A stretch of 64,000 bases of DNA from Chamaelirium japonicum (taxonomy: Eukaryota; Streptophyta; Magnoliopsida; Liliales; Melanthiaceae). The notes under the pieces are model-generated. The model did no database searches. It was not told the origin of the DNA and saw only the letters and a program-made list of their open reading frames with translations. Below are positions 2,591 to 64,000 of this stretch, in pieces. The DNA is taken from positions 38,459,098 through 38,523,097 of the forward strand of contig OX393549.1 in NCBI GenBank assembly GCA_947650365.1, in the 5' to 3' direction. Position numbers and translations under genes: made by a program. Numbering within the stretch: the first letter of the stretch is position 1; each line of letters opens with the position of its first letter.

Positions 2591-3087
2591 ATACCCCCTC
2601 CTGACCGGACGGTCTTCGGTCCCGCCCGGTCAGGATCACTTTGCCTCGATTTACGTACAGCTTCATTATACGTGTCAGCCTCGACTTGCATGCCCGCCTC
2701 GGTTTGCATGCCCGCCTCGGTTTGCGTACCTGCCCTGGTTTGCATGTGCCACCTCGATATACGTGCCCATCTCGGTTTGTGTGCCCGTCTTAGTTCTTCG
2801 GGCATCATCGACGTCCTCCGGTAGTATCCCATTAAGTAGGTACTTCTTCATGTTGCTTACCCAGTCAGCTCTGACCGCAATAGTATGGACCGCATCAATG
2901 GCTTGTGTCCTCCTCGTCAGGCAACTATCTTCCGCGGGGCCGACTGTTCAGGGGTCAGCTTGCACCTCAATGAAGACTCTTTTCTCTCTGTCTTCTCTGA
3001 GTACCGATGCTAGATTAGCAAGGGCATCCGCCTGCTTGTTTTCCGTTCTGGGGAACTGGTGAAAGCTTATGTCTTCGAACTTGGCGA

Positions 3088-3789
3088 TCAACTCCCGGGC
3101 AGCTTCAGGTAAGCTTGCATTCTGGCGTCGCGGGCTTCGTACCTACCGGTAATCTGATTGATTACCAGTTGGGAGTCGCCGTAGACCTGTAGGCTGGTCA
3201 CCCCCAGCGCTGTCGCCATCTTCAGTCCTGTCAGCATCGCCTCGTACTCAGCTTCGTTGTTCGTCGTCGGGAAAAGTAGCCGCACTGACTTTTCGAGCTT
3301 CGTGTGATCGGGGGTTACCAGGACTACCCCCACACCACACTCGACTGCGCACGACGAGCCATCCACGAACAATCTCCAGCCTTTTCCTTCGTCCTCCTGT
3401 CCTGCTGCCGCACCAACTCCCACGGGTCGATCGACAGCTACCGACAGGTCTTCTAACGTCTCTGGCACCGGTGCAGTGTCTTCCGCCGGGAAATCGCTGA
3501 GGACGTCCGCAAGTGCTTGGCCCTTGACTGCTTTCCGAGGCACATACCGAGGACCAAACTCTTGCAGCTCTGCAGCCCACTTGCTCAGCCGACCTGCCCG
3601 AGTAGAATTATCCAGTACTTCCTTCAGGGGGTGATATACCCTTCCTTGTTTGCGTTGGTCGATCGGTCGTACCCCCGAGGGGTCTGTCGACTGATCCTCC
3701 CAGGTGTTCACCGGCCGGTCACGCCCTTCGCAGGGACCTGTCGACCGGTCGGCCAAGTGGTAGAACTCGCTCAGAGTGTTATGTACCAC
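3088..3789 (-). pseudogene. RNase H-like part of the broken Gypsy element
   Basis: The translated minus strand shows a segment typical of the end of a Gypsy RT/RNase H domain (RLSKWAAELQEF, KGQALADVL). An RNase H-like fold follows, with FVDGSS, NNEAEYEAMLTGL and YGDSQLVINQ. In Tat-lineage elements a second, archaeal-type RNase H sits at this place. The part is a fossil remnant with no full polymerase around it. Confidence 0.7.
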
Positions 3790-5348: not shown

Positions 5349-5783
5349 ATGGTGGACTTGCCTTGCTTATTCAATACGCCGCACCTATCGGTCGACGGCA
5401 TTTGACGACGGTACAGGGCCATGGTACCCGTAGATGGCGTCTACCTCTCGGAGTTGGCATCTTTCTGGCGGAGGACCCGGTAAGCACTATGCCGTTGCTC
5501 CTCGCTGGACTTCCCCTACAGCCTTGGTTTTCTTACATTGAGGGATGTCAATGAAGCAGCCAAGGTGGCCGGCCTCAATGAGATCCTCAATATGATGCTT
5601 GAGCGCCCAGCACTGCAGGGTGGTGTGACCTTGGCCTTGATGGTACTCACAGTACCTTGATGCATCTCTGGCTCCCCTCTCCCCGGGCTCAAGCGGTTGT
5701 GCCCACTTGAAGTATGATTCACCTTCGATGGCTTCCAGGATCTGGTCTATGGGGGCGTTCAGTACTGTGAACTCCCTGTTCCA

Positions 5784-7316
5784 CTATGGCCTCGCTGGCC
5801 TGTCTTGCTTCTGCCGCTTCGCGTCATGCCTCGTCGCCTCGCCCTGTTGCTTGTTGACGTTCTTCACGGCAGCTGGTCTGGCGTAGCCTTGGTGTGGGAC
5901 CCCGGTTTCCACCGCCTTCCTCTTGCGGTCCGCGTCTTCGATCTTGATGTACTTCTCAACACGCCGCGATAGCTCGTCGATCGTCTCCGGGGTTCGCTTG
6001 ATGAGCGACGCGTTGACGAACTGGGCAGGCTGAATGGCGTTCTTGAAGGCCGCGATCACCATGCGATCCTGCCCGTCTGCGTCCGCCAAGCTCAGGTACT
6101 CGGACCTGAACCTATGGTAGAATTGTCGGAGCGTCTCCTTCTGGGTCATACTCATCCCGAAGAGTGACTCCAGAGTCTTCAGCTCCCGGCGATTGCATCG
6201 GTACTGGTCGATGAACCGCGTGCTCAGCTCCGAGAAGGAGGAGATGGACGAGGGCCTAAGCTTGTGGAACCATTCGAGGGGGGTTCCCGACAAGCTGTTG
6301 GCGAAGGTCCGGCAAAGGATATGATCATCCTCATGCGGGACCAGAGCATCCCGGAAAGCCAGTACATGCTCCACCGGGTCTTTCGATCCGTCAAACTTGG
6401 GAAGGCGTGGAGGATTCCATCCTCGAGGGAATGGCTCCAGGAGTAGCTTCTCGACAAGCGGCGATCGCGCGGCTCCTCGGATGGCGACTTCCTCCAATCG
6501 GTCGGGAGCTCGGACCCCCGGTCGGTCTCGCTGGATCTCCTCTTGCTCCCCGAGTCGCTCCGACGCATGTACCCGAATGCGTTCATGTACGCTCCTCCGG
6601 TCAGTAGTATGAGCCAGCTGCCGACTGGCTGGCATCATCCGAGTGCGATGACTATCACTCGGTTGACGATGAAGTTCTCCGTCTCGCTTTGGGCGATGCA
6701 CTTGTGCCGAGTCCGTCTTCGAGTGATGCTTGGAGGCAGGCGGCTGTCGGGGGTGTGCCCCGAGCCGGGACCAGACATCCGAGCGTGCCGACACCGCTCG
6801 AGCGTGTTTGTTTCTTTCCGCAGGCTCAGGGCTACTCGAGTCTCGCCCGTCGGGATTCGCACTTTGGACCTCCACCGAGCGATTAACCCTGACCTCCACC
6901 TGAGGCACTGGTTGCGGCTGCATTCGCACTGGTGGGGCAGCTTGAGCGGGGAGGCTCTGTCCTGCTTGGGTCAACATGCCCTGATTGAGTAGACCACCCG
7001 TCGGTACAGCCCGCACGAAGTCACGCAAGTCCTCGTAGTTGCGCTGCATCGTTTGGAGCTGGGTGGTGAGAGCTTGCTGGGTCATCATCATTGAGGCCAG
7101 AAAAGCTTCCGACAGACCCCCGGTTAGTGGAGCCAGGGTTGCTACCGGAGCTTGACTGGAGTCCCCGACCCCCAGTATGGGACTCACCAGCGGGACTGCG
7201 CGCTCCGTGTCCGCTGATGGTTGAACAAGATGCCCGACGTCACTAGCATCTCCGAGTGGTGCGGCTTCGGACGGGAGCTGCGACGTCGAGCGGGTACGAT
7301 ACGGTCCACCGGCCAT
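5784..7316 (-). pseudogene. Gag region of the Gypsy element, 510 codons
   Basis: The C-terminal half matches the plant retrotransposon gag family (Pfam Retrotrans_gag type): GWNPPRLPKFDGSKDPVEHV, then LEWFHKLRPSSISSF and FRSEYLSLADADGQ. The N-terminal half is proline-, arginine- and serine-rich. It starts at the first ATG after the primer site and lies next to the 5' LTR, the expected gag place. In a working element it would form the virus-like particle; here it belongs to a broken element. Confidence 0.8.
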
Positions 7317-7442: not shown

Positions 7443-8707
7443 TGTGGGGGGTTTTTAGTCGAACCGGGCGATTCGGGTGGCGAGCACAATCCAACAAGCC
7501 AAATGCAAAGAAGAGACGGTGGTTACGTGGAAAAACCCCTTCGCAACGTCGAAGGGGAAAAAACCACGGGTGGGGCGAGAATGCACTAAAACAGCTCCTT
7601 CATTTACAATCTCTCACCTTGACCTCAATTACAATCCCCGAGGACCGGTCTCCCAAACTACCGACCTCTGCAATTTCACTCTGACTACCGACCGCTGCAG
7701 ACAGCGTCTGCCTGCAGGTCGCTGCAAACAGTGTCTGGCTGCCGACCGACCGACCTCCGCAGACAGTTTCTGGGTGCTGACCGATCGACCTCCACAGACA
7801 GCTTCTGGGTGCAGACCGACGGACCTCCGCAGCTCTGCAAATTCCAGGACGAAACGGGCAGCGTCTCCTCCTGAATTCCTCCTCCCCACTGAAGGGGTAG
7901 GTCCCCTTTTATAGTGGCGGGGTGACGGTTACACTCCGCGAAAATCGGGCGAGTGACGTGTCCCCGCAATGAGCTCAACCGCCGCGATGACGTGGCGCGC
8001 GGTTGACACCTGGTCACGTTGAGCCGGAAATCGCGGAGCGTCGTCAGCACCGCGAGATCTCCGGGTTTGGCTGTTGCTTCACGCTTCGGCTCGTTGCATG
8101 TCCCATCGAGGGAGAGAGAGGTTGTTGCCTGGCCTATCTCCTTTTGTCTGGATACACGCCGACCGAGAGCCGCAGGGGGGGTGCTGCCTCCCCCCTGGAT
8201 ACATGCCGACCGACCCCCCCCCCCCCCCCCCCCCCCCTTCTCTAGGTACATGCCAACCCAAAGGGGGGGGCTGCTTCCTTGTGTAACAACCGGCCGACCC
8301 CCCCCCTCTCTCTGGCTATATGCCGACCCAGGGGGGGGGGGGGTGCTCCCTTTGGTGACCGGCCGACCCCCCCCCCCCCCCCTTCTCTCTGGCTACATGC
8401 CGACCCGGGGGGGGGGGGGGGTGTGTGCTCCCTTTGGTGACCGACCGACCCCTCCTCCCCTCTCTGGCTACATGCCGACCAAAAAGGGGGAGGGGGGGGT
8501 GTGCTTCCCTTGGTGACCGGCCGACCCCCCCCCCCCCCCCCTCCCCTCTCTGGCTACATGCCGACCCAGGGGAGGGGGGTGTGCTTCCCTTGGTGACCGG
8601 CCGACCCCCCCCCCCCCCTCCCCTCTCTGGCTACATACCGACCCAGGGGGGGGTGTGCTTCCCTTGGTGACCGGCCGACCCCCTCCAAAAAAGGAGTGGT
8701 ACGCACA
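7443..8707 (-). repeat. 5' LTR of the Gypsy element
   Basis: A direct repeat of 1500-2590. The C-run/G-run minisatellite (about 8150-8690) has about two more units than the other LTR. The right end ACGCACA is followed by the target duplication AATTC. Confidence 0.9.
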
Positions 8708-12630: not shown

Positions 12631-12788
12631 ACAACCAAGGAACAAAAAGTCGATTTTGACCATGAAATAATGATTTATTTTACAAAATCTTGTGATTTAT
12701 CGCATTTCGGTAACAAAAAACCCCCCCGAAATATTTTGTGAAATTTTGCGAAATATACAACACACAATCTAGTCTACATCATTAGTAG

Positions 12789-12981
12789 CAAGGAATGAAA
12801 GATCGAGGATACTGAAACAAAACATCGTATACAAAGATTTACAAAAATCTGCCGAAATTTTCTCCCTGTGTTCAGCTGTCTCGAAATACCTGTGATATAT
12901 TTCGGAAATTTTTTTTCTCAAAATATCTCAGTTTTCCTGGATTCCGATACGTAACCGATATGTTAGAAATTTGATTCCTTG
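12789..12981. mobile_element. hAT-type MITE, CAAGG/GAAATATCG family
   Basis: It starts CAAGGAATGAAAGATCG and ends ATTCCTTG. Internally it repeats GAAAT/AAATTTC-type text (for example TCGAAATACC, ATATTTCGG). Flanking 8-mers ATTAGTAG (12781-12788) and GTTAGAAG (12982-12989) match at 6 of 8 positions, fitting an aged hAT duplication. A second related start, CCAAGGAACAAAAAGTCG, lies at 12635, so this copy may sit within another member. Confidence 0.55.
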
Positions 12982-13135: not shown

Positions 13136-13347
13136 CAAGGAATGAAATATCGAGAAATATAGCGCAATAACTAGTTTTTTCAGCGTACCGGAATGAAACC
13201 TGGATACCGAAATTCCCAAATTTATTAGTTTTTTTTCCGGATCCGTAACACAGGGTCCCGTAAAAATAGGGATATCTCACAAAATATCGGACGAAATATC
13301 TCGTTTTTTCAGGATTCCGATAGTCAGAATTCAAAAAAAAATCCTTG
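13136..13347. mobile_element. hAT-type MITE, CAAGG/GAAATATCG family
   Basis: It starts CAAGGAATGAAATATCG and ends ATCCTTG, with internal AAATATCGGACGAAATATC. Flanking 8-mers TCTAATAG and CCTGACAG differ only by three transitions, as expected of an old duplication. It ends 23 bp before a strong-looking splice acceptor at 13371-13372. Confidence 0.55.
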
Positions 13348-17806: not shown

Positions 17807-18311
17807 CACGGAATCAAATGTCGACAAATTTCCTAAGAAATCATCGAAATATGTCTATTTTTTAAGGGTCTGACATAGAAATTGATCGAATTTTTAATAG
17901 TACCAAATGTTCTTCCGATAGAACGAAATGTCGGCCGAAAAATGACCGACATTTGACCGAAATCCGACATTATGTCTTTTTTCTAGACAATTTCACTAAA
18001 AATTTTTATCTTTTTTAACAAAACAAAGCTCATCTTTATCAGTAAGAAATTATATTTTTCATCAATTTCGATTTTTTTTCATAATAGACAATATTTTACT
18101 GTCATCTTTATCCTGACGTATTGCTGAAATATAAACCTGACCAAAAAACGAAAAATTTCCATCGAAAAACACCAAAATTTGACCGAAAAATAAAATATTT
18201 CCACCGAAATTTGTCTTTCCATTTTACAATTTTTCCACCGACAAATTACTGAAAAGTAAATTTTTTTTTTGCCGACTGACATGGACACCAAAAACGACAT
18301 TTAAAACCTTG
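17807..18311. mobile_element. hAT-type MITE, CAAGG/GAAATATCG family, 505 bp
   Basis: It starts CACGGAATCAAATGTCG and ends CGACATTTAAAACCTTG. Flanking 8-mers TATACAAC (17799-17806) and TATGCAAC (18312-18319) match at 7 of 8 positions, the length expected for hAT. The interior reiterates CCGAAATTTGACCG / CGACATTTGACCGAAAT-type text. Non-coding. Confidence 0.7.
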
Positions 18312-54313: not shown

Positions 54314-54321
54314 GACACTAG

Positions 54322-54470
54322 CAAGCTAGGTTTGAAATAGCGATTTCGACTATCATTTCGAGCCCTCCAAAAAAAGGCATATTTCGTGGAATATTGCCAA
54401 ATATCGCAAAGCATGTAAAAAATAAATATTCCTTGATATTTCTCGAAATATGTCGATATTTGGTACCTTG
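54322..54470. mobile_element. hAT-type MITE, CAAGG/GAAATATCG family, 149 bp
   Basis: It starts CAAGCTAGGTTTGAAATAGC and ends CGATATTTGGTACCTTG. Flanking 8-mers GACACTAG (54314-54321) and GACGCTAG (54471-54478) match at 7 of 8. The interior has TATTTCGTGG, AAATATCGC and TCGAAATATGTCG. Confidence 0.7.
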
Positions 54471-54559
54471 GACGCTAGTATTGAGATTTGGTTCTTGAAT
54501 TTGTCTCTTGGACTTGTCCAGTGGATGCCCCTTGTCGAATTCGTGGAGTAGTTGTTCGT

Positions 54560-57173: not shown

Positions 57174-57620
57174 TGTTAGATACCCTCACACCTCAAAACC
57201 CGAGTTGTAAGGGGTGGTCCACAGCGGGTATATTAAGCGGGTGATGGGTGCCTCCCTTACCGATGTGGGACTATCCGTTAACATCCCCCCTCACGCGGAG
57301 CACGCGTGGTAAGGCACAATCGGTGGGGACGCACAAACCCGATCGGAGCCGTGGAGACGTCGAGCATGGGTCGGGAAACCACGGGGTGGCGGATCGGCGG
57401 CCGGATGACGGCACGCAGGTGGGGCAGGACGGCGCGGGCATACGAGGAGTGGATTCGGGCCGACCTTCGTTGTTGTGCTTCTCTGCTCCCTTTATTTATT
57501 TATTTTTATTCCTTCTTCAGGTGTTGATGGTGTGGTCTGTGATGACGGTGAGCATGATGAACATGACGGGCAAGACCGCGTGAGGGAGCAGAATCCTTCA
57601 CAACCTGGCTCTAATACCAA
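57174..57620 (-). mobile_element. TRIM-like element, one LTR seen
   Basis: An LTR-like stretch (57174-57283, starting TGTTAGATACCC, ending GTTAACA) is followed by a CCCCCC tract (a reversed purine tract). About 330 bp later comes GGCTCTAATACCA (about 57604-57616), a reversed initiator-methionine primer site. It contains CCGATGTGGGA like the TRIMs at 14.4 kb. The second LTR is not recognisable, so it is incomplete. Confidence 0.55.
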
Positions 57621-57776
57621 TTTGATGCAGCACAGCCGTCGATCGTCGGCGCAAGAGATAGGAAGAAAGAAGAAGATAAAAAGGGGGGGCCTCGCACCCT
57701 TGGCCTCTCGCCAAATCCGATCTCACATCGGCATTGAGCCTCTCGCTCGCTCTCCTCTCACAGGGGAACTCGTGGC

Positions 57777-58330
57777 CATGGTACAAAAAATCGAAATATT
57801 TCGCGAAATATCGCGAAATATCTCGGATAACTGAAAACCCGATTCGAAATCAGACCTGCAGTATCGAGCAGTTCGAAAATGCATTAATCTCGCGATATTT
57901 CGTAATATATCGCACGAAATATAAGCCTCGCGAAATATCGCGGTATTTCGGTCGACAGCGGGGCCCGCCTCACGTGGGGCTGTTTGGAGTTGACAGCCTG
58001 TCACGATATTTCGTGATATATCGCACGAAATATCGCGCGAAATATCGTGCGAAATATCTCTGCCGACAGCGGGGCCCACCTCACGTGGGGGCAGCTGGAT
58101 TTGACTGGTCACGTGCGAATATTTCGACGAAATCTCGCGATATTTCGCACGAGATTTCGCCAAAATATCACGATTTTTTGAAATCGGGCGCCCGCTGTGC
58201 AGCTTTCGCGAAATGCATTACACGTGGCGACCGAAAGCGACCGCAGCTGTCAGCTTTCGCGAAATTTCGGGGATTATGACATTTGGCTGGATTTGGCCCG
58301 AAATTTCCGCCAAATGTCACTTCGGAGCGG
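57777..58330 (+). repeat. Left end and subterminal repeats of a hAT transposon
   Basis: The end CATGGTACAAAAAATCG matches the family terminus of the small elements (CAAGGAATGAAATATCG type). It is followed by dense copies of GAAATATCG and its complement CGATATTTC (57790-58180). Two blocks of GACAGCGGGGCCC(G/A)CCTCACGTGGGG (about 57955 and 58064) lie within. In hAT elements such subterminal repeats are binding sites of the BED zinc finger of the transposase. The matching right end is not in the window. Confidence 0.6.
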
Positions 58331-60186
58331 AATTTTCGTGCGAATTTTTTGGGTTTTGGTTTATTTAAGGCTGCCCGAACCCTTTGGTGCCTTCACAGCC
58401 GAAACTTGCTCCCCCTGTCCCCCAAGGCCCGAATCCTTTTGGTGCCTTTCACAGCCGAAACTTGCTCCCCTAAGGCTAAACCCTTTGGCCCCTTTCACAG
58501 AATCACAGCCTCACCCGAAATACTTGCTCCCTCTCTCTCTCTCTCTCCTCTCCCTCTTTGCTCACAGTCTCACACAATCACAGCCGGCTCTCTTACTCTC
58601 TCGTCTCTTAACTTTCTCGAGTCTCTTCACAGTTTCACACCGAGCCGAAGGTCCGAAATACATTCTTTCTATTATTATGAAATGCATTTTTGCTGCCATT
58701 GTTTATGCTTTTAAAGTATTTATCCAAATGTTTTTTTTCAAATGTTTATGCCATTGTTTATGCTTTTAAAGTATGATTTTTGCTGCCATTGTTTATGCCA
58801 AAAGTTTTTGCTGCCATTGTTTATGCCATTGTTTATGCTTTTAAAGTATGATTTTTCCAAATGTGTTTTTTCCATAATAGCCTTTTCATCCAATTTCAGT
58901 TCTGAATCTTTTAATGCTAATATGCTATTAATCTATTCTTTTTTTTTTATCCATTAATCTTAACATACCTAATACTCTAATAGTGAATCCGAGTTATATG
59001 TTCCGAACCAATGACCATGGGTTAATTAAGGGGTCGCTTTGTGTGGATCGTTTTAAAGTTGTTTCTTTTTAATAGATATATCATCAGTTAAAATGCTTGC
59101 ATGTATTCATCTCGATGGTATAATGGAACAATAAATATTCCAAGTATAAATATGCTTGCATGTATTTCTTGAATCTTGACTATGTTAAAATGTTTGCATG
59201 TATTTTTTGACTATGTTTTCCAAGTATAAATATGTTTGCATGTTAAAATGCTTGCATGTATTTCTTGACTATATTTTCCAAGTATAAATATTAATGTCAT
59301 TTTTGGCTGAAGTTGAGCTTCAAAACCCAATTTTGTATTTCATTGGGTGGTGACTATGCAGTATGCACTACATATTCTGATATGTTCATGCATAATTGGA
59401 ATTATCTAGGATCTATTATAGGAAATGTAGTATGTGCCACTTCGCTCTCGCGTCTCACTCAACTTTCTTTCTCTCTTTTGTTTTGGCTGTGCAAAAGTGT
59501 AAAAGGGCTGTGACAGCTTGACAGAAGAGTGCAAAATTAAAACTTGAGTCTCAACTTGCAAGAAATCTTATAACAAAGGTATGTCTTATTTATTTACTTT
59601 ATAGATAAACACTTTTAAAATGAACTTCCATTGGTAAATTATATTGCCAAAATATCATAAATATTTGATAAAATCTTAAAATAATTATTAATATATAAGT
59701 CAAAGAAATACTATCATGATAGAATCATAGAAACGACTTCTTTTAGAAATTAGAAGTTTAGAACATATCTTGCACAGTTGCACTTAGGTTTCTCGATAGA
59801 AGCGACTGTAAGTTTTCCACTGAATATTCTATTGATTGACGGTGTCTAAGAAAAGCTTGTCTAAGAAAGCTTGGAAATTTAAGAGAGCCTAGTGCTCCTC
59901 CACCGATCTGGAGCTGATCTGGCTGTCACGCCTTAGAATATTCAATTGGATATCTGAAGTTTAATCTATCTTGATACCTTATTACACATACACTCGTAGG
60001 ATCTCCGTAATTATCTAAAAAAATCTTTTCAAGACTCTAGTAGGAAAAGCTCGGCACATACACTTTTGTATGTGTGTCTAGTCTGTAGTCCCCATAATCT
60101 AGAGATTTTGATTAGAGGTATTAACTATTAAAATAATAAATAAATTAATTTGAAAATTAATGTCGTTTTTACAGACTTACAGTAAA
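58331..60186 (+). promoter_or_regulatory. Putative promoter and spliced leader of the hAT transposase
   Basis: A TATA-like TATTTAAG lies at 58361-58368. Then come repeats of about 60 bp ('acagccgaaacttgctcccc'), AT-rich short repeats ('tgctgccattgtttatgc', 58690-58850; 'gcttgcatgtatttcttgac', 59090-59280), and a good donor (AAAG|GTATGT, intron from 59579). An acceptor (ACTTACAG, ending about 60181) precedes the start codon. Transcription from here is inference. Confidence 0.4.
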
Positions 60187-63100
60187 ATGGGAAAGAAAGA
60201 TATTGGATGGGAACACGGTGTTGCAATATCTGGTGATAAATCCAAGTCACAGTGCAATTATTGCCAAAAGATTTTAAAGGGTGGCGGGGTATCAAGACTG
60301 AAACAACACTTAGCTGGAGGTTTTTCAAATGTAGAGAAGTGTACAAAATGTCCAAAAGAGGTTAGAGATTTAATGAGTGATGTGCTCAGAACAAGTAAGG
60401 ATAAGACATTGGATAAGCGGAGGGCTGAGGAGCAATTTAGAGAGACTTTGGCTGCCCCTATCCGTATTGAAGAGGAGAACTCTGACGATGATGATCCAGC
60501 CTTTAGAGAGGCAAGTCATATGTCCCGTGCCGAACAGTGGGAACGGGATCAGAGAGAAAGGATAGAGCGTACGAGACCTGATTTTGGTCATTCTGTACGT
60601 GAGACGGGAGGTAGTTCAGGTACTCGAGGTACTAGCCATGGGGGGAAGGGTATTGGTAGCTTATGGCGCTCAATGTCTATGAGGCAAAGCAAGTCTTCAC
60701 GGTCAAGTTTTGATCCATATGCTTGCAGAGGGCAGGACACGAGTCAACCAACAATTCCACAAGTAGTAAATAAGAAGGGGATTAAGGCTAGACTGCACAA
60801 GTTCATTGCTAGATTTGTACACTACGGGGGTTTGCCACCTAATGCAGTGGCTAATAATCCCTTTTACCAGACAATGCTTGATGAGGCTGGTAGGTGTGGA
60901 CCAGGAGTGAAAGGTCCAAGTGCATATGAGTTGATGAACCCACTTCTTGATCAGGAGGATGACGATCTCCGAGAATACATGGGGGACTTAAAAAAGAAAT
61001 GGCCACAATATGGTGTTACTATCATGTGTGATGGTTGGACAGGTCCCACGCGCATGTCACTAATCAATTTTATGGCATGTAGTGACGGAAAAATAATTTT
61101 TCTTAAATCAGTTGACGCGTCTGCACATATAAAAGATCATCAATATTTGTATGAATTGATGAAAGAAGTTGTAGATATGGTAGGAAAAGAGAATGTGGTG
61201 CAGATTGTCACTGATAATGGCAGTGCATATCTGAAAGCTGGAAAAAAGCTCATGGAAACAAGTGGCTATAACTTGTTCTGGACCCCCTGTGCTGCTCACT
61301 GTATAGATTTGATGCTTAAGGATATTGGAAAGAAGAGTAAAGTAAAGAATCTGGTGCAGATGGCGAGAACAATAACAAACTTCATCTATAATCATAGTTA
61401 TGTGCTTGCTATGATGAGGGAGAAGTGTGGGGGGGATATTGTGAGACCGGGTCTCACTAGATTTGCAAGCAACTATGTAGTCCTATAGAGCTTGCTCGAT
61501 AAGAAAGATAGTCTTAGGGCAATGTTTACTTCCCCAGAGTGGCTGCAATATCAGGGGCGACATGCTGGTGTAAATATTAAGGACTTGGTTGGGCAGTCTG
61601 CATTTTGGATTAAAGTCCGTGAAGTTGTCGATATTCTCGACCCTATTGTGAAAGTATTGCGGATGGTGGATGGAGATAAGAAGCCCACCATGGGATATAT
61701 GCATCGTGCTATTGATCTGATGAAAGATCAATTGAAAACCAATCGTTCTCATGATTGGATATTAAAGATCATTGAGAAAATGTGGACAACACAGCTACAA
61801 CATCCCTTACATAAGGCTGGTAAGAATCTATCCCGAATGTGGTATAATTAGAGCTTATCATTATAACTGTGATGATTATTTAATCTTTTTTGTAGCATTT
61901 TATTTGAATCCGATGTATCACTATAATCTCGATCTTGGAATTCGAGATGACCTGATTCAAGGGATTCAAGATGTAGTTGCGAAGTTAGTATTAGATCCAA
62001 ATGAACAAGCGATCTGTCTTAGTGAGGTAATCTTGTAAATAGATTACACATTTTAATTTCTATAAGATGAAGCTTTTAATTGAGTATGTCTCAATAAAGC
62101 TTTAATTCTCTCAATCTTGTAGTTGAAGATCTTTAGGGATGCGATGGGTAGCTTCGCGACACCGGCTGCAATAAGTGGGAGACAGTTAACACAACCAGGT
62201 CAAACACTTAAATCATGAATAAAAATCATAAACACTTTTTTTATTCGTTAATGTTTACTTAGTGATATTTTTTTTTATTAATGTAGCTGAATGGTGGGTA
62301 ACTTATGGCACTTCGGCCTCAAATCTACGCAAAGTTGCCGTCCGAGTCCTTTCACAAATCGCTTCATCATCCGGTTGTGAACGTAATTGGAGCACGTTTG
62401 GGTTGATCCACACTAAAAGAAGGAACAGGCTGGGGCATGAGAGGTTGGAGAAACTTGTACGCGTGCACTATAATTTACGAATGATGATAAGAAATTTGAA
62501 AGAAGGAGAGGACAGGGACATGGGACCGATCGATCTTAGCGATATTTTTTCTGGAGACGTAGAGGAGGACCCACTATATGAGTGGGTTAAGGAGTTGGGA
62601 TCTCCAGCTATGGACACCCCCTCAGGTAGACCGAGCCTATACATCGCCTCACAGATGGGTATAGATATTGCAGACCTAGAGACGCAGGCTCGTAGCAGTA
62701 GCACCGATGAGGATGACGATGATAGTCATAGTGGTAGTGATGATGTTTCTGGCGGTGGTGGTGGCGGTGGGGGCAGTGGTGGTGGTGGCGGGGCGGTGGC
62801 GGTGGCGGTGGGGGCAGTGGTGGTGGTGGTGCTTCGGGATCACAGAGACCGTTAAGCCCATTTACTGGAGAAGATCAGTTTGAATATGCTACTCAGGATC
62901 GTGATCATGCTGATCCACGACAGAAGAGGGCAAGACATTATGAGCGTAGACGAGGTGCTCCGAGACATACTGATAGAGATAGCTCCACATCTACTCATTG
63001 GAGCCAAGAGGTTGACTCATTATCGTCTCAGTTTGATGAGATGAGCACGAGCAGTGGCGGATACGGTGGATACAATTATGGTCAGGGGCAGACTAGTGAC

Positions 63101-63523
63101 CCATATAGTCAACCTTATAGCCAACTGGGCACCGGTGGGATTTTCTACTCTCCATATGGATATCCTGACCAGAGCGGTAGTTCTTATGGCTCTCAGCTTC
63201 AGCTTCAGCCTCAGCCTCAGCCTCAGCCTCAGGGATATCAACTGTATCCATATGGATATGATCATCCGATAACTGAAGGTGCAGTTGTATATCCTCATAC
63301 AGATGGAGGGGTCACCATCGCTTTATATACACAGTATCCGGTGATTGGATATTTGGTTGGGGTGTCAGGACCAGAGTATGAGCAATATGTAAGAGAGTTT
63401 ATACAGTGGCACCAGCAGTATATGACATGGCATCACTATTGTCCAGATTATCTTGCATCCATCTACCAGAGGCGAAATCCAAGAAATGATTATGAGCCGG
63501 GCCGCCGATCATTTTGGCAATAG
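60187..63523 (+). pseudogene. hAT transposase, BED-DUF659-dimerisation type, decayed
   Basis: Exons 60187-61819, 61896-62026, 62123-62198 and 62287-63523 fit GT-AG introns with agreeing phases. An N-terminal BED-type zinc finger (CNYCQKILKGGGVSRLKQHL) reads HLAGG where the next copy has HLAGC, so a metal ligand may be lost. DUF659 follows (IMCDGWTGPTRMSLINF; ITDNGSA-like VTDNGSAY; AAHCIDLMLKDIG). Exon 2 has AFYLNPMYHYN, and exon 4 the hAT dimerisation domain (SSSGCERNWSTFGLIHTKRR). A Gly-rich and a Tyr/Gln/Pro-rich tail close it. A TAG interrupts the frame at 61486-61488 (after NYVVL), and the frame shifts in the Gly repeat near 62790-62800. It would have cut and pasted the element; now probably inactive. 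Confidence 0.8.
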
Positions 63524-63704
63524 ATTTGATGTTTCATTAGAATTTTGATGATGTATTCTTAATTTCTTATGTACTTTTGGGTTTTGGATATATAGTCTGT
63601 ATTTTCAATCAACTATTCTTATGAGCTGGCTAGTCGTTCACTCGTTCATCAGTTTAAACTTCTTTTATAGTTCAATATTACTTATTAATTATTATCATTT
63701 ACAG

Positions 63705-64000
63705 ATGGCCTCCCAACCTCCTCCGCATAGAGATTCTGGGTTAAAAGACATAGGGTGGCAGCACGGCTTTCCCTTGGACACAAAGAAACAAAAGTCACAG
63801 TGTGCATATTGTGGCAAACAGATCGGAAGTGGAGGTGTTACACGATTGAAACAGCACCTCGCCGGCTGCTTCCCCGATGTAGCAGAGTGTTTGAAGGCTC
63901 CGCTTGAAGTCAGAGTATTCATGCGCAATCTATTGAGAAGCGGAGACAAAGGAGTTCAGCTTCGAACCCCTAGGCAACCCAAGAAGGGACGGATCGAGAA
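63705..64000 (+). CDS. Second BED zinc-finger hAT transposase, start only
   Basis: It starts MASQPPPHRDSGLKDIGWQH right after a splice acceptor-like TTTACAG. The BED finger CAYCGKQIGSGGVTRLKQHL continues AGCFPDVAEC, with all metal ligands present. The closest relative in the window is the transposase 180 bp upstream (same strand, same layout with an acceptor just before the ATG). It runs open to the window end; DUF659 and dimerisation parts would lie beyond. Whether it is a separate element or a tandem gene copy is unknown. Confidence 0.75.
   Translation, partial: MASQPPPHRDSGLKDIGWQHGFPLDTKKQKSQCAYCGKQIGSGGVTRLKQHLAGCFPDVAECLKAPLEVRVFMRNLLRSGDKGVQLRTPRQPKKGRIE

Follow-up and report, generated by a model that had tools for sequence, protein, structure and literature searches.

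To our knowledge, the hAT transposons studied in detail encode one protein each. In the literature searched, where matching papers were covered in part, we found no two-protein hAT, which does not prove that none exists. The BED domains of Hermes bind subterminal repeats and help to assemble the transpososome, according to the available sections of PMC10368747.

The window analysed here, a stretch of 64,000 nucleotides from Chamaelirium japonicum, holds a plant-type hAT with a DUF659 domain. It shares with the studied hATs Hermes, Ac and Tol2 the 8-bp target duplications, the short imperfect inverted ends, the BED finger, the hAT dimerisation region and the subterminal repeats; it differs by adding a second reading frame, ORF2, with a free BED finger.

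Three described systems come close to this frame. KP-type repressors arise from P elements with internal deletions, which retain a DNA-binding domain derived from the transposase although no working transposase is left, and KP is 207 aa long (PMC7776569; PMC12393704, in the accessible parts of both). The same anatomy, a DNA-binding domain without a catalytic body, is present in ORF2, a likeness taken from sequence alone. However, the P element belongs to another superfamily and its DNA-binding domain is of the THAP type; moreover, KP is a truncated transposase, whereas ORF2 is a separate, diverged frame found in full-length elements as well. In En/Spm (CACTA), one element makes, alongside its transposase, a separate protein for reiterated subterminal words: TNPA attaches to the subterminal repeats, and both it and TNPD are required (PMC2613891, available portion). 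ORF2 would parallel TNPA if it binds DNA in the same way, but the superfamily, the element ends and the duplication length differ, and the available portion of that paper does not describe TNPA as a copy of the transposase DNA-binding domain. CGGBP-type proteins likewise descend from hAT transposases and bind DNA through a BED domain (PMC8097297, as far as the available text goes), yet they are host genes, while ORF2 is part of a mobile element. A natural hAT encoding an isolated BED finger in addition would show a route to hAT self-regulation, and how BED-only host proteins could begin.

Limits, ends and transposase gene of the element

The features of the element are as follows.

57769..57776, no strand: left copy of the target duplication, CTCGTGGC; the right copy lies 741 bp past the window end
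57777..64000, running on to 64741, plus strand: hAT element, delimited by its ends, the 8-bp duplication and genome matches
57777..58336, no strand: left end, in which GAAATATCG-type subterminal repeats recur in both orientations, from word counts against shuffles
58360..58370, plus strand: TATA-like sequence picked by eye, possibly the start of a shared leader
60187..63523, plus strand: transposase gene ORF1 in several exons, with zf-BED, DUF659 and hAT dimerisation region, from Pfam and open reading frames
63705..64000, on to 64310 past the window, plus strand: ORF2, a BED-only protein of 201 aa, its ATG directly behind TTTACAG

Reading the sequence confirms the left end, CATGGTACAAAAAATCG, at 57777, where the original prediction had placed it. 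The right end that it expected beyond 64000 lies at 64741 (locus L009): ...GGAGATTTCGAACCTTG is followed there by CTCGTGGC, identical to the 8 bases just before 57777. The window copy is thus flanked by an exact 8-bp duplication. The whole element measures 6965 bp, the final 741 bp lying beyond the window.

With the left 624 bp as query against the genome (1.52 Gb), at least 54 matching rows were obtained from the 40 candidates scored of 982; of the 54, 35 start at query base 1 and another 5 at bases 4-6. Our sample of 20 copies comprises the window copy and 19 loci from the top 20 rows of this search; for four of the copies the left flank was taken from a second locus covering the same place. 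As anticipated, matches to the terminus are flanked by 8-bp duplications, identical at 8/8 positions in 18 copies and at 7/8 in 2. The majority left end begins with CACGG, and with CATGG in the window copy and L020. In full, the majority ends are CACGGTACAAAAAATCGAAA on the left and, read inward from the right side, CAAGGTTCGAAATCTCCATT. The terminal inverted repeats are short and imperfect, as in other hATs (CACGGTAC... against CAAGGTTC..., agreeing at 11 of the first 17 bases). CACTA ends and a 3-bp duplication of the En/Spm type are absent, the element having CACGG / CAAGG ends and an 8-bp duplication.

A scan of 65 kb for paired ends of the element type with flanks matching at 7/8 or better, using a pattern shaped on these very ends, recovered only the big element and a small one at 17807-18311. 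Twenty mononucleotide shuffles gave no match, and we reject a chance origin of the ends, with the reservation that the pattern was modelled on them. Another small element, 54322-54470, was missed, its end being interrupted by a 4-bp insertion.

ORF1 matches zf-BED (3.1e-7), DUF659 (7.7e-52) and Dimer_Tnp_hAT (1.1e-11) in Pfam. Together with the right end of the expected kind and the 8-bp duplication, these transposase domains bear out the hAT identity. The window copy had also been called autonomous, which is not supported because its ORF1 is interrupted by an in-frame stop at 61486-61488, absent from all 12 of the other copies read there. L014, L016, L019 and L020 have no stop or gap in the three ORF1 pieces compared, so that uninterrupted transposase copies apparently exist. 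Over the first coding exon, changes shared among 14 copies give a dN/dS of 0.23 (39 synonymous, 34 non-synonymous). Separately, in a Gly-rich stretch at 62744-62855 the open frame of ORF1 switches from that of 62232-62855 to that of 62744-63523, possibly through a frameshift in the window copy.

The subterminal repeats of the big element stand far above chance in its left end, as the predicted reiterated word required. In the left 560 bp, GAAATATCG/CGATATTTC occurs 7 times against 0.03 expected, and GAAAT/ATTTC 23 times against 3.75 (1000 dinucleotide-preserving shuffles each). In the right 130 bp, GAAAT/ATTTC occurs 11 times against 1.51 expected from dinucleotide shuffles, and GAAATATCG was not found there.

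Two side observations concern the left part of the locus. The left ~970 bp (57777-58750; L010-L028) exist in two versions: there, many copies share just 84-86% identity with the window copy, against 95-97% over most of the remainder. The left-end type and the ORF2 variant are not always paired, which suggests recombination between copies. Outside the element, the stretch 57177-57290, GTTAGATACCCTCACACC...GATGTGGGACTA, is found by eye twice more downstream in L009, once reversed; it seems to be one end of a further dispersed repeat.

The four small elements of the window

12789..12981, no strand: MITE family A, ends CAAGGAATGAAA / CAAGGAATCAAA, flanks agreeing at 6/8 in the window copy
13136..13347, no strand: MITE family B, CAAGGAATGAAATATCG-type ends, flanks agreeing at 5/8 in the window copy
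17807..18311, no strand: MITE family C, ends CAAGGTTTTAAATGTCG / CATGGAATCAAATG, flanks agreeing at 7/8; a large family, with 2044 first-look candidates
54322..54470, minus strand: MITE family D, right end resembling the left end of the big element and left end its right end, flanks agreeing at 7/8

All four lie at the positions originally given for them, and two of the four indeed have flanks matching at 7 of 8 bases. They are genuine hAT MITE copies of four families. Each family is dispersed (at least 40, 41, 43 and 42 matching rows for A, B, C and D, with 40 candidates scored per search), and one relative per family, L031, L036, L038 and L044, has flanks that agree by eye at 8/8.

Their ends were compared in one to three copies per family. 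The right end of family D agrees with the big left end at 37-40/45 positions in three copies (37/45 in the window copy), and its left end with the big right end at 20/30 in two copies and, ungapped, at 14/30 in a third. One end of family C agrees with the big right end at 21-22/30, the other with the big left end at 17-20/30. Families A and B have CAAGGAATGAAAT ends and match the big left end at no more than 12 of the first 17 bases; the best-read copy of B carries CAAGGAATGAAA at both ends. One end of the B copy L035 comes close to family D, at 35/45 against the big left end, the other B ends scoring 25/45 and 28/45. The proposed resemblance of all four elements to the big one extends to both ends only for family D; A, B and C, with weaker or one-sided matches, share the general terminus more loosely. 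The four sets of ends are of similar type without being identical.

GAAAT/ATTTC is present in all four, as originally noted, with counts of 5, 4, 13 and 6 in A, B, C and D. Such counts are reached by 28, 126, 0 and 0 of 1000 shuffles, respectively; a clear excess is therefore confined to 17807-18311 and 54322-54470. GAAATATCG in full is present in 13136-13347 alone, as a single copy. The idea of one MITE family tied to the big element is not supported: in the few copies read, A, B and C carry consensus ends that differ from those of the transposase-bearing element. With differing ends and GAAATATCG in one element only, we reject one common family for all four. The differences fit the presence of several hAT lineages that are related and whose ends are of one type, D being the one close partner.

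By eye, another CAAGGAACAAAAAGTCG end with GAAAT-type words lies at 12635-12790, just left of the family A element, and this stretch may form a MITE cluster with A and B. A second copy of 54314-54478, 99% identical and with alike flanks, lies 28 kb away (L042, G000:C1:38541851), suggesting a local segmental duplication.

A second reading frame and the deletions around it

The original prediction recognised the element and missed both ORF2, from 63705 onwards, and the derivatives that keep it. The ORF2 protein consists of a BED finger (Pfam zf-BED, 8.3e-8), a linker and an acidic tail with a TWTSDDE end. Its finger and that of ORF1 both exceed the Pfam zf-BED cut-off and are 56% identical over 68 aa; a weaker likeness (36-40%) reaches the first 123-145 residues of the transposase. 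These likenesses suggest that ORF2 arose long ago by duplication of the 5' part of the transposase coding region. It does not extend the transposase frame, a possibility that we reject: ORF1 stops at 63523 and ORF2 begins anew at 63705. A PDB sequence search with ORF2 gave 0 hits at E up to 1. A structure model of residues 1-98, from a two-row alignment, is of low confidence (mean pLDDT 62.9), too weak for a structure search; its strand-strand-helix succession is as expected for a zinc finger.

ORF2 was found in 19 of the 20 copies, intact in 9 and broken in 10, and an acceptor-like AG precedes its start in 18 of the 19. The transposase region is present in 13 copies and partly missing in L025, which keeps ORF2. 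Five copies of 1967-3050 bp (L011, L013, L022, L023 and L024) have lost the transposase and kept ORF2, which is intact in three of them; L027 (1114 bp) has lost both. L022 and L024 have a common junction filler and are 99.5% identical over 1322 bp on the 3' side, with different target duplications: a single deletion then moved, and an ORF2-only element has transposed. There are accordingly six independent internal deletions, four that remove the whole transposase and keep ORF2, one that removes part of it and keeps ORF2, and one that removes both. Five of the six break 8-308 bp before the ORF2 ATG (element positions 5621-5921, the ATG being at 5929), and the sixth beyond ORF2, at 6704. In a uniform-breakpoint simulation, a crude null applied to a stretch chosen afterwards, at least 5 of 6 breaks fall there with a frequency of 1.5e-5; with a stretch of 729 bp the frequency is 6e-4. 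L027 bears a clean 8/8 duplication despite having lost ORF2, so the ORF2 stretch is not needed in cis. The frequent retention of ORF2 in shortened copies without the transposase hints at a built-in regulator.

Constraint on ORF2 does not appear clear within the family. Shared changes comprise 6 synonymous and 15 non-synonymous ones, two of the latter being stops, with a ratio of 0.71, and ORF2 diversity is 2.4% against 2.5-3.0% in the surroundings. Two older relatives lie beside copies of the element.

L023, oriented 3000-3680, minus strand: decayed divergent ORF2 relative with a TWT-type acidic tail, beside the L023 element
L013, oriented 7606-8019, minus strand: decayed divergent ORF2 relative with a TWT-type acidic tail, beside the L013 element

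Between ORF2 and the relative at L023, itself decayed, dN/dS is 0.37 over 175 codons at a dS of 0.75, with 50/42/70 differences at the three codon positions. The L013 relative, whose BED part is absent or could not be aligned, yields 0.64 in this comparison; between the two relatives the value is 0.81. A search of the L023 locus for transposase likeness outside the known element returned nothing but the BED part of the relative. Past constraint on ORF2 seems likely from these comparisons, though not proved.

Possible roles of ORF2

We tentatively favour, over a passenger or a helper role, a two-gene hAT in which the BED-only ORF2 protein brakes transposition by competing for the subterminal repeats. 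ORF2 would be expressed from a promoter in the left end, with the acceptor-like site at the ATG used for splicing. The ORF2 finger would bind the same GAAATATCG-type repeats as the transposase; without the catalytic and multimerising body, the protein would occupy them and damp transposition, as KP-type repressors do for P elements, and perhaps also damp transcription from the left end. Full-length copies would move the ORF2-keeping derivatives in trans, and the brake would travel along. In its favour we count the presence of ORF2 in 19/20 copies, the 56% identity of the fingers, the acceptor-like AG in 18/19, the breakpoints, the movement of the L022/L024 deletion, the dN/dS of 0.37 and the binding of subterminal repeats by Hermes BED domains. 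Against it count the within-family ratio of 0.71 (0.23 for the ORF1 exon), an ORF2 diversity near that of the flanking sequence, the 10/19 broken frames, the values of 0.64 and 0.81 for the relatives, the choice of the breakpoint stretch afterwards, the sample of 20 copies and a possible deletion hotspot.

The same data can be read in other ways. That ORF2 is a functionless partial duplicate of the first coding part of the transposase, kept through a chance clustering of breakpoints or a cis requirement for the 3' part, is rather doubtful. Such a passenger would explain why constraint is not visible within the family, why 10 of 19 frames are broken and how L027 could lose ORF2 and still show a clean 8/8 duplication; yet L027 also shows the stretch to be dispensable in cis, the dN/dS of 0.37 against the older L023 relative speaks against a passenger, and uniformly placed breaks would rarely cluster so (1.5e-5 or 6e-4, under the crude null and for the stretch picked afterwards). 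We consider it unlikely that ORF2 is a helper comparable to TNPA of maize En/Spm, binding the subterminal repeats, joining the ends and being required alongside the transposase; in that case ORF2-only elements would feed or lean on full-length copies. The two-protein precedent with a separate subterminal binder (PMC2613891, available portion), the reiterated words and the presence of ORF2 in 19/20 copies agree with this role, but the transposase has a BED finger of its own, which leaves no obvious need for another binder. L012 and others pair a damaged ORF1 with an intact ORF2, and ORF2 is broken in 10 of 19 copies; neither point against a helper is decisive.

The view from which the analysis started, one autonomous element with a single MITE family on its ends and recognition of a shared word as the whole story, is now very improbable. 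Family D does resemble the element at both ends, the B copy L035 reaches 35/45 at one end and family C 22/30; however, the ends of families A, B and C are distinct, GAAATATCG occurs in 1 of the 4 window MITEs, the transposase of the window copy is interrupted, and ORF2 is left unaccounted for. Beyond the braking role itself, and slightly more tentatively, a hAT lineage may have evolved a dedicated free BED-finger gene, split off from the transposase, whose product recognises the reiterated subterminal word and controls how much transposition occurs. Regulator-only elements would then have arisen repeatedly, at least one of them spreading, and the family would carry its own evolving brake.

Some splice-like sequences were noted in passing. 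A donor-like GT picked by eye lies near 58650, downstream of the TATA-like sequence, and may be a splice donor. In L013 the deletion sets a donor-like GT, also picked by eye, and an acceptor-like AG 73 nt apart before ORF2. Donor-like and acceptor-like sites also lie ahead of the ORF2 relative in L023.
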